Origin: Pannonibacter phragmitetus DSM 14782
Lineage (GTDB): Bacteria > Pseudomonadota > Alphaproteobacteria > Rhizobiales > Stappiaceae
Direction: 5' to 3'
NCBI RefSeq assembly: GCF_000382365.1
Contig: NZ_KB908238.1
Location: forward strand, 1,754-41,460
Length of the DNA stretch: 39,707 bases
How positions within the stretch are numbered: the stretch's first letter is position 1; each line of letters starts with the position of its first letter. Below the pieces are notes generated by a model. That model did no database searches and had not been told where the DNA came from. It saw only the letters and a list, made by a program, of their open reading frames with translations. Made by a program: the position numbers and the translations under genes. This document shows positions 35 through 20,454 of this stretch, one piece after another.

Positions 35-361
35 TCAGAGGAGAACAAGTTGTTCACTCGCCTTGCGCTCGGTTTTAGTTGATTCGCCAACAAGCAGTTT
101 CATTCGGGCATATTGCTTGTCCGTGATCTGCAGCGTACGCACACTGCCCTTCGGAGGCAGGTTGGATTTGATGCGCTTGAGGTGCTTTTCCACACCTTCT
201 TCCGCGCGGCAAATCCGCGCGTAAACCGAGAACTGGATCATCAGAAAGCCATCCCGTTTCAGAAAATTCCGGAAGCGTGTCGCATTGCCGCGCTCCTTTT
301 TTGTCGTGACCGGCAGATCGAAGAACACCATAAGCCACATGAACCGGATGTCCTTGTTCAT
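35..361 (-). CDS. cas2: CRISPR-associated endonuclease Cas2
   Basis: This 108-residue protein is the small partner of Cas1 in the spacer integration complex, in which a Cas2 dimer bridges two Cas1 dimers. The N-terminal ferredoxin-like beta strand carries the family aspartate in the motif VFFDLPV (Asp15), followed by a basic helix and the SVYARICR strand typical of type II Cas2. Length is normal for the family. Its ATG overlaps the cas1 stop by 4 bases, so the two are translationally coupled. It is the last gene of the leftward cas9-cas1-cas2 run. Only 34 bases remain before the window edge and no repeat is seen in them. In type II-C loci the array commonly follows cas2, so I infer that it lies beyond position 1. 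Confidence 0.96.
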   Translation of the reverse strand: MNKDIRFMWLMVFFDLPVTTKKERGNATRFRNFLKRDGFLMIQFSVYARICRAEEGVEKHLKRIKSNLPPKGSVRTLQITDKQYARMKLLVGESTKTERKASEQLVLL

Positions 362-1257
362 TGGCGAGAGCAGACCGAGAGTTTGGGCAGGTCCAGCAAG
401 TCTGCGGAGCCATGTTCCAGTGCCTGCACCAGGCTTTGCGCGGCGATCTCAGTGGCATTCAGGAGGCTCATTTTACCACCCGTCATCACGACATCAATCA
501 GAGGCAGGCCACCAAGCTTTTGCCGGTCTTGCCGTGTCAACTCGTCGCTTGTGTCCCGATCCTGGCAGATGCCCGCAACAGTCAAATCGACGAGTGGGCG
601 GAAAGGCTCAATCAGGTCATCAACCAGATTGAACGCATTTGCCTGACTTGCGTGGTGCAGTCCGAGGGCGGGGATAAGTCCAGTTGCGGCAATCGCACGA
701 GCCAGACATCCGCGCACCACCGCATAGCCATAGTTCAAGGTCTTGTTGCGCAGATCCGTTTCGTCCCCGCGCGAAAAGTTGAGAAACAGGCGCTGCCAGT
801 AAGCGCGTGCAGCCTGTGCCTCAATGTTGTCCGGATCGCCGGACCGGACACGGTTCGCCGTTCCGGTCAGGGGCGGCCCCACGCGTTCGAGGCTCTCAAG
901 GACCGCGGCCTGATTGATGATCTTGCGGTAAATGATCCGCTGCCAGAGACGCTTCTTGAGCGGCGCTCCGGCCGCGACCTGAAGCTCGGTCATGGCCGCC
1001 TGCTTGTGGTGCGGGTGATAGGGCAGCGTCACCGCGCTTGGCATATGCTGCCGGTCGCTCGTCAAAACGACAGCCCCCGCTTCCGCGAGTGCGGCGAGCA
1101 GGGCAACGCTGAGTGTGGTCTGGTGATTGTCGATGATCACCCAGGCGATATCCTCTATGGCCAACCGTGTTTCGCCGTCTTCCTGTGACACGACAAGCTG
1201 GGCCGCCGCCAAAGATAACCGCGCCGGATTTGTCAGATGCACGCCCTTCCACGCCAT
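358..1257 (-). CDS. cas1: CRISPR-associated endonuclease Cas1 (type II)
   Basis: Cas1 is the integrase that inserts new spacers at the leader end of the CRISPR array, acting with Cas2. The 299-residue length and the start MAWKGVHL are typical of type II Cas1. The metal site is recognisable: a Glu in the NIEAQAARAYW segment, a His in LGLHHASQANAFNLVDD, and acidic residues in DDLIEPFRPLVD. All look intact, so adaptation is probably functional. The gene starts inside the 3' end of cas9 (25-base overlap) and ends overlapping cas2 by 4 bases, so one transcript is very likely. No cas4 or csn2 is present, which fits subtype II-C rather than II-A or II-B. Confidence 0.97.
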   Translation of the reverse strand: MAWKGVHLTNPARLSLAAAQLVVSQEDGETRLAIEDIAWVIIDNHQTTLSVALLAALAEAGAVVLTSDRQHMPSAVTLPYHPHHKQAAMTELQVAAGAPLKKRLWQRIIYRKIINQAAVLESLERVGPPLTGTANRVRSGDPDNIEAQAARAYWQRLFLNFSRGDETDLRNKTLNYGYAVVRGCLARAIAATGLIPALGLHHASQANAFNLVDDLIEPFRPLVDLTVAGICQDRDTSDELTRQDRQKLGGLPLIDVVMTGGKMSLLNATEIAAQSLVQALEHGSADLLDLPKLSVCSRQ

Positions 1258-4200
1258 GTCCGGATCTCCTTTCCGACCGCGTGTTTTTGCCCAAGGCGGT
1301 CGACATGATATTTTTCGATCCTCAACAGCGTGCGAGCACCGATACCACGTTCAATTTGCTGAGGTGCCGTATGGTGTGCCAAGGAAATGGCACCGGTCGA
1401 CCGGTCAAGTCCTTTGAAATACCCCTCAACGACCTCGCCGGTGGGACGAACGACAGTCAACAGACTGTTTTGGAGAATGGAGAAACAGAACTCATAACTT
1501 TGATCCATAATCGGCCAAGAGCTTTCTGGCGTATTGGCCTGAACCGCGCTGTTAGGGGGGCCGTCCATTCCGCCGCCCTTTGATCGAAAGAAATCATTCC
1601 GATAAATCGGTACTAAGAAATACTGAGTCTTGCCCTGAGTGTTTGCCTTGGCAAATACGTCGACCCGAATCATTTCGGAGCGGTCGGCGGATCCACCCCG
1701 GACGGCCACGGCCTTCTTGGCGCGTGAAAGAAGCTTGACCTTCCTGACTGGGTCACCCTTTGGGGACAAAGGCAGGGCGTCTTTGGGCTTACCGGCCTCA
1801 ATCCAACTCTTCAGGCTATCGAGCAACTGATCGCGCAGTTTCCCCGGATCGACAATCTTGCCATAGGGTTTTGGGACAGGGATACGGTCGAGGTCGCCAA
1901 TCTTGAGCTCCTCAATCGCCTTGCGTTCAAAGACCTTGGCTTCACCGTCGATCTCGCGGATCTGTCGAATTGTCGCATCGTGGCCTTTTCCACGTATCCG
2001 GCCGCTTTCCGGCCGCGACACAAACACTGCCTGGACGACGGCTGCAACTTCGTTCCGGAACTCGGCGGGCGTTCCCCAAGGCGCAGGCAGACCACGCAGT
2101 TCGAATTTCTCTCCCTTGATCTCCGCTGCCTTTGCCAGCGCGGTGGCTCGCTGCAGCAGGCTTTCGCTGCACAGGGCCGTCACTATGGCGTCAAGTGCAT
2201 GGTGACGGTCGTCTTCAAGACGTTCGCCATGCGCGCCCTTCTTCAGGCTTTCCAAGCCCCAGGCACGCCGCAACGCTGCCGTGAGTGCACCCGGTCTGGC
2301 AAAGATCCTGCGTTCGCCCCCGGTTTCCCGGGCAAGGTTTGGAAAGGCGTCTTTCAGGTGTGCAAGAACCACCTTCAACGCGAAACGCGTGTCATTCAGG
2401 TTCCGGCTTCTGAAAGCTTCTTCCCGGTCTGAGGCGTTACGGATCAGGTAGTTGCGCTTTTTCAGGCCTTTCAGGGCCTTGTTGCTCTCGACCTCAGCCT
2501 GGAAACGCTCCCAGTCGTCTGACTGTTCCGCCGATTTCCACTCGTAGGGCGTCCGGTTCTTTTTGTCTGCGTTCGCCTTCGTGAAGCACAGGGTCTTGTT
2601 CACAAAACTGTCGTCGCCGAACCGGCTCCAAGGCAGAATGTGATCGATTTGAACGGCGTTGTCGGTGGCGAGCACTGCTTGAAGCGGAATTGCCTTGCCC
2701 GAGTAAAGGCACCGCCCATTCTGTTCCTTCCAAAGTTCATAGCGCAGAATATCTTCGCTTCGAAGTGTCGACGCGGTCTTGCCGAGGTGGTCCGCCAGTT
2801 CTTCTGCGGCCCTGTGCCGCTCGTCGGTCCGCTTGTTGATGCCGTTCTCTATCTTGCGCCGCTCTTCGCTGCTTTTTCCAACGTCCCGCGCCATCTCCAC
2901 ATGAACACGGTCGAATGGACCGAACGCTTGGGAGACTGCCTTAATCTGCTTGAGGATTTCCCGGGCCGCCTTCTGGGCGACAGGCGAGCCAATTGCCGAA
3001 AGATCCATGACGCTTTGTTCGCTGTGGCTCCAGCCAAGCTCTGCGCAGGCGTCCGAATAAACCAGGCCACGTCCCATTGGCTCGCACAGGGCCCGGGCGG
3101 CGGCTGCAGACAAGGCTGCAGTGCCTTTGAAGGTGTCGAAAGCGCCCTGACGCGCCGCCTCGAGCAAGGCGGAAACCGCCTCCGCAGGCAGACCAGAGGC
3201 TTGAAGCCCAGTCTCGATGTCGCCAAGGTCCTCGTTGAAGGCAATCGCCGCCGTTGCCTCGTCAAGGGGAGTTCCCCTTTCCAGGAGCCCAAAAGCTTCA
3301 ATCTCGCCAATCGCCGGGATCAACACATCCAGCAGTGTTTTTGTGCCCTCAAGCGCCGCTCCGGTTCGCCGGGCGATATCCCTTTTTTCGATATCCGGAC
3401 CCACGCCATCAAAACGGTCAGCCTCCACCAACCCGAGCTTTGTCCGCAATGCCTTGAAAGTCAGGCTTTTGGTGCGCGCATAGCCGGAAAGCGCCTTTGT
3501 GATCTCATCGGGCGTGAGAGCACGTCGGCCATCGGCCGTAACCAGCCGCAGATTTGTCAGCCGGGAGAGCAATCGAAACCGTTCGAAGGACGGCGCAAAG
3601 ACGCTTGCACGCTTGTGACCGGGAAGGAACGGGCAATCGCCCACCATCCCGAGGCTGCCTTGCAACGGTTTCTGAGAAAAGGCCAACTCCGAAAAGGTGG
3701 CCTCCAGTTCATCTGACGTATGAGGATTGCCGTGCCGCCTTTGTGCCGCAAACAGTTTGCGGACCTCTGCTTCCTGGTCCGCGCGCAGGATCGACCGGGT
3801 ATAGTCTCCGTCACGATTGCGCTTGCGGTCGATGAATGTGTCATCACGGGCGAACATTTCGCCCACGGTCCGCCACCTTTGTGACTTCTCCCGCGTGGCT
3901 TCTATGCTGGCCAGAACCTTTTGGTTTTCACTGGCCTTGTTCGACTCGGTTCCCTTGCGATTGGATCGGAAGCCACGGTGACGGGCGATGTGCCCCAGTG
4001 CCAGCGCCCACTCCCGGGAGGTCAGCTTCCGATCAAGCCCCTCGGCCCGGAGGGACCAGGGGTCCTTGTCTCCGGCTTCGGCCGCCAAAGCACCTCGATC
4101 ACCTGACGGCAGAAGGCCTGACGCGTGAAACAGTTTCCTGATGTCCGCCATGCGCTTGGCGCGCCTGCGTATGGTTCGCCTCTGACCCCGGAAGAGACGG

Positions 4201-4352
4201 CGATCGGCATTTTTGAGTTTGGGGCCACTCTTGGTCGCTTCCTCGGGTGAATCGAACATCCGCGTACCTGCGGCAACTATTCGTTGGCTCTCAAGGTCGA
4301 CAACTGCCCAGCCAATGCTGGAGATACCGCCATCGATGCCGAGAATGCGCAT
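1233..4352 (-). CDS. cas9: CRISPR-associated endonuclease Cas9, compact type II-C
   Basis: This is an RNA-guided DNA endonuclease that uses a crRNA:tracrRNA duplex and cuts both target strands. At 1039 residues it falls in the compact II-C size class. RuvC-I has the motif GIDGGISSIGWAVVD with catalytic Asp7. An Arg-rich bridge helix follows (RTIRRRAKRMADIR). RuvC-II has HVEMARD with Glu486. HNH has QIDHILPWSRF with His571 and a downstream NADKKNRTPYEW segment. RuvC-III has HHALDAIVTAL with His718 and Asp721. All nuclease residues are therefore present. The reading frame stays open 20 codons further upstream, but the ATG at 4352 matches the family N-terminus and has a GGAG at 4361-4364, 8 bases away. 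The last ~270 residues should hold the PAM-interacting domain, and the PAM cannot be read from sequence. The 3' end overlaps cas1. Confidence 0.98.
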   Translation of the reverse strand: MRILGIDGGISSIGWAVVDLESQRIVAAGTRMFDSPEEATKSGPKLKNADRRLFRGQRRTIRRRAKRMADIRKLFHASGLLPSGDRGALAAEAGDKDPWSLRAEGLDRKLTSREWALALGHIARHRGFRSNRKGTESNKASENQKVLASIEATREKSQRWRTVGEMFARDDTFIDRKRNRDGDYTRSILRADQEAEVRKLFAAQRRHGNPHTSDELEATFSELAFSQKPLQGSLGMVGDCPFLPGHKRASVFAPSFERFRLLSRLTNLRLVTADGRRALTPDEITKALSGYARTKSLTFKALRTKLGLVEADRFDGVGPDIEKRDIARRTGAALEGTKTLLDVLIPAIGEIEAFGLLERGTPLDEATAAIAFNEDLGDIETGLQASGLPAEAVSALLEAARQGAFDTFKGTAALSAAAARALCEPMGRGLVYSDACAELGWSHSEQSVMDLSAIGSPVAQKAAREILKQIKAVSQAFGPFDRVHVEMARDVGKSSEERRKIENGINKRTDERHRAAEELADHLGKTASTLRSEDILRYELWKEQNGRCLYSGKAIPLQAVLATDNAVQIDHILPWSRFGDDSFVNKTLCFTKANADKKNRTPYEWKSAEQSDDWERFQAEVESNKALKGLKKRNYLIRNASDREEAFRSRNLNDTRFALKVVLAHLKDAFPNLARETGGERRIFARPGALTAALRRAWGLESLKKGAHGERLEDDRHHALDAIVTALCSESLLQRATALAKAAEIKGEKFELRGLPAPWGTPAEFRNEVAAVVQAVFVSRPESGRIRGKGHDATIRQIREIDGEAKVFERKAIEELKIGDLDRIPVPKPYGKIVDPGKLRDQLLDSLKSWIEAGKPKDALPLSPKGDPVRKVKLLSRAKKAVAVRGGSADRSEMIRVDVFAKANTQGKTQYFLVPIYRNDFFRSKGGGMDGPPNSAVQANTPESSWPIMDQSYEFCFSILQNSLLTVVRPTGEVVEGYFKGLDRSTGAISLAHHTAPQQIERGIGARTLLRIEKYHVDRLGQKHAVGKEIRTWRGRACI

Positions 4353-4384
4353 GATTGAAACTCCAAAAAATACACGTAGGAGCC

Positions 4385-4412
4385 ATGCTATTCGGTTGAC
4401 ATGCCAAATCAA
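4385..4412 (-). promoter_or_regulatory. candidate cas9-cas1-cas2 promoter
   Basis: Reading the minus strand, a TTGATT box (4412-4407) lies 16 bases before TAGCAT (4390-4385). This would start transcription near 4378 and give a leader of about 25 bases before the cas9 ATG at 4352. It overlaps the -35 box of the candidate tracrRNA promoter on the other strand. Both boxes are imperfect matches to the sigma-70 consensus, so this is an inference from spacing and position. Confidence 0.35.
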
Positions 4413-6981: not shown

Positions 6982-7848
6982 TCAGGCTGATCCGGCCTCA
7001 CGTTCATGTGCCCTGTGCGCGGCTTCGCATAGCCAGCCCCAGAACATCAGATACCAGTCGCGCACGCCGGTGAGGAAAGCAGGCGTCAGCTGCAGCTCAC
7101 CCTGATCGCGCCGCTGCACCAGCCATCCGGCGGCCTCCGCCTTGTTGATGACATTGCGCACATGGGAATGGGAGATGCCCAGCTGTGCGGCAGCCTGCCG
7201 GGCGGCGAAGGGCAGCCAGGGCGTTTGCTCCCGCGCGCCATAGTGGGCCTTCAGCAGGATCAGCGCCAGCCGGTCGCCGCAGTCGAACCGGTCGAACCAG
7301 GGCCAGGCACCCTCGCCCGCCAGCGATTCCCGGGTCAGGCGCACCATGTCGTAGGTCTCGGCGACAAAGCGCAGGCCGTAGACGGGATCGGCATGCAGGC
7401 GCTGATGAAGGTCCGGTTCCGGCAGCAGCAGCCCGGCCACTTCGGCACAGGCCAGATGATGCGACAGCCAGGTCCTGAGGCCGTTCAGCATCAGCTCGGT
7501 CGGCTCCAGCCGCTTTTCGCGCCGGTTGCCGGAGACTTCAACCGCCCGCACGTAACCGGCCAGCTTCAGCAGGCCGATGAAGCTCGCCAGCGTGCGGCTG
7601 CGGCCCATCTGCTGCTGCAGGATGGACAGCGTTGCGGCCTCCCCCTCCCCCAGCTGCGCCCGGCAATGGAGGATCGCCAGCAAACCTGCAGCATGGGACT
7701 GAAGGCTCTTGCCAAACACCTTGTTGATCAGCCTTTCGCCCATGTGCATGGGCAGGATGTTCTCCGCGCAGCGCAAGATTGCAGCCGCATAGGCCTTTTC
7801 ATCCATATGCTGCGGCCAGCTCCCGCGTGTTTGCGCAACCTGATCCAT
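6982..7848 (-). CDS. winged-helix (MarR-like) DNA-binding protein with two HTH regions
   Basis: A 288-residue protein with no family name I can give. Two winged-helix-like segments are visible. One spans roughly residues 70-120 (TLSILQQQMGRSRTLASFIG, then LLKLAGYVRAVEVSGNRREK). The second is near residues 205-255 (AAAQLGISHSHVRNVINKAE, then AAGWLVQRRDQGELQLTP). Each has the shape of a recognition helix followed by a wing and an 'LTP/EPTE' helix, suggesting an internal duplication of a MarR-type domain. No membrane segment or enzyme motif is seen. A good GGGAGG lies just upstream of the ATG at 7848. It is convergent with radC and divergent from a GGDEF/EAL gene, whose promoter region it might control. 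That link is only positional. Confidence 0.8.
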   Translation of the reverse strand: MDQVAQTRGSWPQHMDEKAYAAAILRCAENILPMHMGERLINKVFGKSLQSHAAGLLAILHCRAQLGEGEAATLSILQQQMGRSRTLASFIGLLKLAGYVRAVEVSGNRREKRLEPTELMLNGLRTWLSHHLACAEVAGLLLPEPDLHQRLHADPVYGLRFVAETYDMVRLTRESLAGEGAWPWFDRFDCGDRLALILLKAHYGAREQTPWLPFAARQAAAQLGISHSHVRNVINKAEAAGWLVQRRDQGELQLTPAFLTGVRDWYLMFWGWLCEAAHRAHEREAGSA

Positions 7849-19889: not shown

Positions 19890-20034
19890 AACGCCCTGAC
19901 CGGCAGATTTGGGGTCAAGTTCTCCATCCGCCGGAATCTCCCGGTAGATCTCGTGACAAGGATGCTTCACCAGCGCCCGGCAGGGATGGCGAAGCAGACC
20001 GGAGCTCATGAGAAATACCAGGGAGTAGAAGCTC

Positions 20035-20367
20035 ATGTCTGAACTTGATCCGCTTACCCAGGCCCGCCAGCACATCGAGAAGCACCTCATCCTGAGGGCC
20101 TCGGCCGATGCCGCCTTCCGCGAGTTGCTGAAGAGCAACCCGCATGCGGCCATCAAGGAACTGATCGGCAATGATCCGATCCCGTCCTACAAGATCACCG
20201 TCGTCGAGGAAGCGCCGGGCGAAGTCGTCCTCGTGCTGCCGCGCTCCATCGGGCAGGACGAACTGCCGGACGAGCTGCTGGACTTTGCCTCGGGCGGCAC
20301 CAGTTTCTCGGCCTTCATTCTCTACGGCCCCCCGTATACGAACGGCGGCGGCTGCAAGAAGAAGTGA
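20035..20367 (+). CDS. NHLP leader-type (nitrile hydratase-like leader) RiPP precursor peptide, orphan
   Basis: A 110-residue protein that matches the NHLP precursor pattern: an N-terminal helical part derived from nitrile hydratase alpha subunit (ILRASADAAFRELLKSNPHA and AAIKELIG, residues 19-45), then the strand pair YKITVVEEAPGEVVLVLP (52-69). An acidic stretch DELPDELLDFASGG follows, ending in Gly87-Gly88, the usual leader cleavage site. The remaining 22 residues start TSFSAFILYGPPYTN and end in a Gly-rich Cys-Lys-Lys-Lys tail. AGGGAG lies 9 bases before the ATG. No modifying enzyme or NHLM-type peptidase transporter is nearby, so it may be an orphan precursor, or a protein that kept the leader fold for another role. 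Confidence 0.82.
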   Translation: MSELDPLTQARQHIEKHLILRASADAAFRELLKSNPHAAIKELIGNDPIPSYKITVVEEAPGEVVLVLPRSIGQDELPDELLDFASGGTSFSAFILYGPPYTNGGGCKKK

Positions 20368-20406
20368 TGAAGCCCCGATTGGGTTAGACTCCACCTTCGA
20401 GAAGGT

Positions 20407-20433
20407 CCACGGCAGGGGAGAAGCCTGCCGTGG
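20407..20433. terminator. hairpin between convergent NHLP and usg genes
   Basis: CCACGGCAGG (20407-20416) pairs perfectly with CCTGCCGTGG (20424-20433) across a 7-base loop. It lies between the stop of the precursor gene and the stop of usg, so it probably serves both. There is no clear U tract on either strand. Confidence 0.55.
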
Positions 20434-20454
20434 AAAAGGCAGGGGCGGCCGTCC

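Follow-up and report, generated by a model that had tools for sequence, protein, structure and literature searches.

A conserved solitary NHLP-type RiPP precursor of Pannonibacter phragmitetus and its candidate GNAT and NHLM partners encoded in trans

The window analysed here is a 39,707-nucleotide stretch of Pannonibacter phragmitetus DSM 14782 and contains a gene whose product is, judging from its sequence, an NHLP (proteusin-type) RiPP precursor. The same genome also encodes paralogues of this precursor, an NHLM exporter and a pair of GNAT-like proteins. We therefore favour, with a probability of about two in three, a system in which the machinery acts in trans, the precursor being acylated by GNAT proteins and then cleaved and exported by the NHLM transporter. 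We infer the acylation, the acylated residue and the cleavage, and the GNATs are candidate enzymes.

The precursor gene and its leader

The gene (20035-20367, + strand) encodes a 110-aa protein. An AGGGAG sequence resembling a ribosome-binding site (20020-20025) lies ahead of its ATG, and the alignment of five orthologous upstream regions revealed conserved blocks, including GGCAGATTTGGGGTC, in the intergenic region (19890..20034). A sigma-54-like stretch was also considered upstream of the gene and was dropped by eye, its spacing being wrong and its conservation lacking. On the 3' side of the stop codon, a hairpin with an 11-bp stem and a 7-nt loop, not followed by a T run (20406..20434), is a possible 3' end of a single-gene transcript. 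The predicted fold of 20368-20450 reaches -37.5 kcal/mol (z -2.64), which was equalled or bettered by 2 of 200 shuffled sequences.

The leader comprises residues 1-88 (20035..20298), ends in LDFASGG and is devoid of cysteine. It is followed by the 22-residue core TSFSAFILYGPPYTNGGGCKKK (20299..20364), which carries a single cysteine, Cys107 (20353-20355), and three lysines, Lys108-110 (20356-20364), that form its CKKK tail. From its position, Gly87-Gly88 (20293..20298) is the predicted cleavage site of an NHLM peptidase-ABC transporter. The original prediction, made from the letters alone, had announced a precursor of this type with this Gly-Gly and this 22-residue core; the translation confirms the two latter features and the profile search bears out the former. 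Indeed, the NHLP leader model TIGR03793 aligns with residues 11-88 over profile positions 2-77 of 77 (E 6.3e-13), and this whole-leader homology stops at residue 88, i.e. at the second Gly.

The score obtained, 48.4 bits, is formally below the curated cut-off of 50.9 bits, a shortfall of 2.5 bits relative to a value that is set for detection and does not describe the protein itself. Because paralogues that are 61% (contig C22) and 67% (contig C8) identical to the window protein exceed this cut-off, with 51.3 and 65.2 bits respectively, we read the shortfall as a matter of sensitivity and not as a lack of kinship. Membership of the NHLP family, as assessed from sequence and models, rests also on these close paralogues and on fold matches. 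The NHLP-family protein of PDB entry 9cjx matches residues 16-88 by sequence (E 4.6e-8) and that of entry 8tb1 does so weakly (E 0.027). The same two proteusin NMR structures head the Foldseek results (9cjx, probability 1.00, E 0.03; 8tb1, probability 0.92, E 0.14), a ranking that rests on a low-confidence AlphaFold2 model (pLDDT 58). This model has three helices, two strands and one helix, and its pLDDT is below 50 from residue 88 to residue 110. Nitrile hydratase alpha models match the window protein weakly (PF02979, E 0.004; TIGR01323, E 0.014); the leader thus keeps a likeness to this subunit and, having no Cys in residues 1-88, lacks the CxxCSC metal site.

Paralogues, exporter and GNAT pair encoded elsewhere

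The window gene lies between genes for a DUF2007 protein and a TrmN/MTS-type methyltransferase, upstream, and for Usg, a cytochrome c and AAA/VWA proteins, downstream. As predicted, no modifying enzyme or peptidase transporter adjoins it: these neighbours are not RiPP genes, and contig C24, which carries the window, has no LanC, NHLM-ABC1, GNAT, YcaO, MNIO or SPASM protein among the matches listed in the own-genome searches. The adjacent methyltransferase was rejected as a maturase, its matches being rRNA, tRNA and release-factor methyltransferase families.

The gene had been called an orphan, which holds for its position and fails for its genome. The latter (4.78 Mb, 39 contigs, 99.99% complete) contains 12 TIGR03793 matches below E 1e-4, including seven close precursors at four sites: the window gene, four in tandem on C22, one on C8 and one on C1. 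A 20-kb stretch of C8 gathers NHLM exporter genes, a gene for an outer-membrane efflux protein, a close and a divergent NHLP precursor, a pair of tandem-GNAT-like proteins of about 315 aa, a response regulator and a histidine kinase. The genes for ABC1, ABC2 and HlyD are adjacent there, which counts as an NHLM exporter present in the genome: the peptidase-ABC protein NHLM-ABC1 scores 969 bits (cut-off 853), HlyD 305 bits (cut-off 156) and ABC2, truncated where the locus ends, 458 bits (cut-off 709). NHLM-ABC1 also exceeds its cut-off in all six other genomes searched. The survey of the genome for NHLM transporters and RiPP enzymes that had been proposed as a check therefore yields an NHLM-ABC1 above cut-off and a GNAT pair, both on C8. 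Each of the five Pannonibacter genomes with the gene has both exporter and pair. Machinery acting in trans is well supported, and the alternative then offered, a new role for the protein, is unneeded.

Other maturation routes were looked for in this genome. A search with LanC (PF05147) gave no match at E 1e-3, and the lanthionine (class II lanthipeptide) route was put aside for this genome, no LanC/LanM-type protein having been found. No match was found for the SPASM radical-SAM route. The MNIO protein on C7 (PF05114; locus L090) was discarded as a maturase: it adjoins a DUF2282, weakly bufferin-like, small protein and belongs to a separate bufferin-type locus.

In all four NHLM loci examined, the TolC-like gene adjoins a gene for a conserved protein of 345-391 aa (L009:7623-8798, L060:10862-12001, L092:4109-5167 and L093:12051-13088), two copies of which gave no match in a Pfam scan. 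The 391-aa copy on C8 was compared with the product of window gene 6982-7848, and their likeness is negligible.

The link between the GNATs and these precursors comes from several genomes. Precursors like the window protein occur in 5 of 41 genomes (own genome included), and it is exactly these five that carry two GNATs each; as they all belong to one genus, they represent few independent events. The GNAT pair adjoins a tandem precursor array in three Pannonibacter genomes (G001-G003) and a single close precursor in two (G000 and G004). In Rhizobium sp. RU36D, it adjoins a precursor array together with the same kinase and regulator. In these six genomes, the pair is thus adjacent to paralogous precursors and not to the window gene. 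Beyond them, a plasmid of Shinella sp. H4-D48 carries a GNAT gene 180 bp before an NHLP gene, which is followed by genes for a radical SAM protein, a Nif11 precursor, a second GNAT and NHLM proteins. In Ensifer sp. PDNC004, a GNAT gene adjoins those of a small GG protein and two peptidase-ABC-like ORFs (judged by eye). In a genome from another family (G419), a related GNAT gene lies 3-10 kb from NHLM genes, beside three small ORFs, of which the one scanned exceeds the cut-off of the Nif11 leader model and only one has a GG.

Across a class sample of 385 genomes, the GNAT profile matches only two at E 1e-15, the own genome and G419. At E 1e-6, the window protein matches five of the 385, namely the own genome and four others whose NHLPs are distant (46 bits or less); these four have no match to the GNAT profile at E 1e-15.

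The first GNAT of the own genome passes one Pfam gathering score (PF00583, 22.6 vs 20.7) and the second passes none (17.2), while both orthologues from Rhizobium RU36D pass. The first keeps an RGRGIA P-loop-like motif, where the second has RRQHLA. The two paralogues are 34% identical, whereas each has a Rhizobium counterpart at 46-52% identity; the pair is therefore old. A Foldseek search with a Rhizobium copy returned tandem-GNAT proteins first (E 1e-8), with TM-scores near 0.3 from a poor model (pLDDT 59). The GNAT alignment, searched against PDB sequences, gave no match at E 0.01. The available passages of PMC13060382 describe NpuN, the lysine acyltransferase of the nostolysamides, as a tandem GNAT, and state that NHLP or Nif11 precursors occur with such GNATs and that a lanthionine synthetase is not always present.

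In RU36D, the NHLM exporter is separated from the NHLP/GNAT array by genes for CheR, CheB, an MCP, CheA and a CheW-domain protein (L093:13085-17357, L049:9153-15332), and a similar chemosensory layout, judged by likeness only, is seen in Pannonibacter G003 (L092). From the kinase, the regulator and these genes, all that may be said is that a signalling role is worth testing.

Core composition, the acylated residue and competing explanations

The cores were compared in 46 close precursors from six genomes. This set derives from 52 proteins, six of which scored below 78 bits and were removed (the second C8 copy, two on C20 and three of RU36D); three of these six have a parsed core without Cys and three have no parsed core. 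Also left out were nine weak matches (two each in G001-G003, three in G004) and one TIGR03793 match on Rhizobium contig C37. The leader ends in GG in 45 of the 46, the remaining one, from RU36D, having GV, and only one leader contains a Cys. All 46 cores have exactly one Cys, at very different positions. Lys is present in 43, the other three being from Pannonibacter, and Lys or Arg in all 46. No residue other than Cys occurs exactly once in every one of the 12 classes into which the 46 cores fall; a simple independence estimate, which ignores deeper kinship, puts the probability of this by chance at about 5e-6. A Lys or Arg lies within three residues of this Cys in 10 of the 12 classes, a proximity that is not significant against shuffles.

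By contrast with these cores, 12 proteins from two Tistrella-type arrays without this GNAT (phmmer), nine of which have a GG, were all seen by eye to lack a Cys after the leader. Such NHLP arrays with Cys-free cores (L121, L122 and L097 of Tistrella mobilis) adjoin an ABC transporter, annotated in Tistrella as a cyclic-peptide exporter, and iron-uptake genes; no maturation enzyme was seen at these loci.

Neither residue marks all GNAT-linked cores. Cys fails on the Shinella NHLP core and the Ensifer core, which have Lys and no Cys, and Lys fails on the three cores of G419, which have Cys and no Lys, as well as on the three Pannonibacter cores. No single residue thus fits every GNAT-linked core: as the acylated residue, precedent, as far as the passages of PMC9505594 and PMC13060382 go, favours Lys, and conservation favours Cys.

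In the reading that we prefer, the folded leader would dock on one or both GNATs, which would acylate one of the core's side chains. By analogy with selidamides, a lysine of the tail would be the likeliest target, the single Cys being the alternative. The peptidase domain of NHLM ABC1 would then cut after Gly88, and ABC1, ABC2, HlyD and the outer-membrane protein would export a 22-residue, basic-tailed and probably lipidated peptide, which the kinase and response regulator encoded beside the GNATs may control or sense.

The main rival to GNAT acylation is that the YcaO cyclodehydratase encoded on C18 matures the precursor through conversion of its only Cys to a thiazoline, with the GNATs serving other steps or other precursors. 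One Cys in each close core would suit this route. In addition, the C18 protein exceeds the Pfam cut-off and spans the whole TIGR03604 SagD model, though at 94.5 bits against a cut-off of 219. In the excerpts of PMC12455567 and PMC2887384, respectively, YcaO enzymes act on NHLP precursors and are sometimes encoded far from them. However, the YcaO gene has its own adjoining small NHLP-like protein (29 bits, without GG), a tblastn search of 19 other loci, including the arrays of the four other Pannonibacter and of RU36D, found no relative of the enzyme, and the Shinella homologue of the window core has no Cys. We consider this explanation unlikely. The YcaO gene, two small ORFs (among them the NHLP-like one) and a gene for a BTAD-type regulator form, at L013:7651-12252, a separate candidate azole-RiPP locus.

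Another explanation, to which we give an equally low standing, dispenses with modification: the peptide would leave the cell unmodified, as a bacteriocin or signal processed by NHLM, and its single Cys would form a disulfide-linked dimer, perhaps between members of the set. The unvarying presence of one Cys at varied positions suits such a dimer, the exporter genes are present, and the own-genome searches for LanC and SPASM proteins were negative. An unmodified peptide, however, would not need a GNAT pair kept beside the precursors in both Pannonibacter and RU36D.

A more elaborate version of GNAT acylation can also be drawn, and appears a little more doubtful than either of these rivals. The precursors would constitute a lanthionine-free, dispersed library of single-Cys proteusins, in which the tandem-GNAT pair would acylate the Cys, perhaps with transfer to a nearby Lys, and the kinase/response regulator, together with the chemosensory genes, would sense the exported lipopeptides, which would serve signalling rather than antibiosis.

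Conservation of the solitary gene and comparison with known systems

In all five Pannonibacter genomes, the window gene is found between the same neighbours, i.e. the DUF2007/TrmN-type methyltransferase pair and Usg. The number of precursors at this site varies, P. indicus having a second one after the orthologue of the window gene. Ten orthologue pairs show 88-99% identity in the leader, with dN/dS of 0.02-0.19, and 71-90% identity in the core, with dN below dS in 10/10; the core is therefore constrained, but less than the leader. All five orthologous cores fit the pattern [TV]xFSxF[IV]LYGPPYxxGxGC[KR]K. Furthermore, the core of the Shinella plasmid NHLP, IGFSAFVLYGPNDAPPKPRR, has FSAFxLYGP in common with the window core. 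Shinella belongs to another bacterial family, so this type of core either predates the genus or has moved between families. By these sequence comparisons, the window gene is a conserved gene and not a product of chance. Its isolation among housekeeping-type genes and the varying precursor number could suggest a stray duplicate of the C22/C8 precursors that is neutral or decaying and yields no product. This is very improbable, given its constant site, the constraint on leader and core and the FSAFxLYGP motif kept in another family. The original prediction held that a core as conserved as the leader, in relatives without any RiPP enzymes, would count against it; the leader is in fact the slower-evolving part, and candidate RiPP enzymes are encoded in the relatives, so that this argument does not apply.

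NHLP precursors encoded far from their machinery, NHLM export and GNAT-type RiPPs are all known already. Compared with the NHLP/proteusin and NHLM systems (TIGR03793, 03794, 03796 and 03797), as presented in the passages available from PMC2887384, the Pannonibacter system shares a nitrile hydratase alpha-like leader without the Cys metal site, a GG near residue 83-88, expansion into paralogues, precursors encoded far from the machinery and NHLM exporter genes in the genome. It differs from them in the two GNATs beside precursors, where no lanthionine or azole enzyme was found, in the one Cys per close core and in the position of the window protein slightly under the TIGR03793 cut-off. With the selidamides phaeornamide (PMC9505594) and nostolysamides (PMC13060382), again as far as the excerpts of these papers describe them, it shares an NHLP or Nif11 leader, a GNAT encoded with the precursors, a Gly-Gly-cutting peptidase-transporter and an alphaproteobacterial example. 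The nostolysamide GNAT is moreover a tandem GNAT, a type to which the Pannonibacter GNATs show a likeness. Unlike selidamides, the system has no LanC-type protein in the genome, two GNATs and seven dispersed close precursors. As in selidamides, a GNAT is tied to the precursor family. The fatty acyl group that selidamides carry on a Lys or Orn side chain is a candidate modification of the window core, which has three Lys; three of the 46 close cores have none.

Prochlorosin-type libraries rely on a LanM enzyme and Nif11 leaders, whereas the candidate enzyme is here a GNAT pair and the leader is NHLP. Both have many precursors, a conserved leader, diverse cores and shared enzymes (cf. PMC10783134). 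The combination of a GNAT pair, no LanC, dispersed single-Cys precursors and a conserved solitary member was not found in the literature searched, and among open-licence papers no title or abstract opening dealt with Pannonibacter NHLP peptides.

An isolated precursor need not be a relic, and whole-genome and comparative evidence can name its likely partner enzymes. The results suggest a compact RiPP system of the GNAT type, in which each genome supplies about seven natural substrates. Such a system could help to study how two paired acyltransferases recognise a folded leader while accepting many different cores. A signalling role can be tested as well, since two-component and chemosensory genes adjoin the arrays.

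Apart from the precursor, the window carries a type II CRISPR-Cas system (35-4412, - strand) encoding Cas2, Cas1 and a 1059-aa Cas9-family protein (PADLOC matches). A very short CRISPR array, with three repeats at a 66 nt spacing, is located on the same contig outside the window (L015:349-518).
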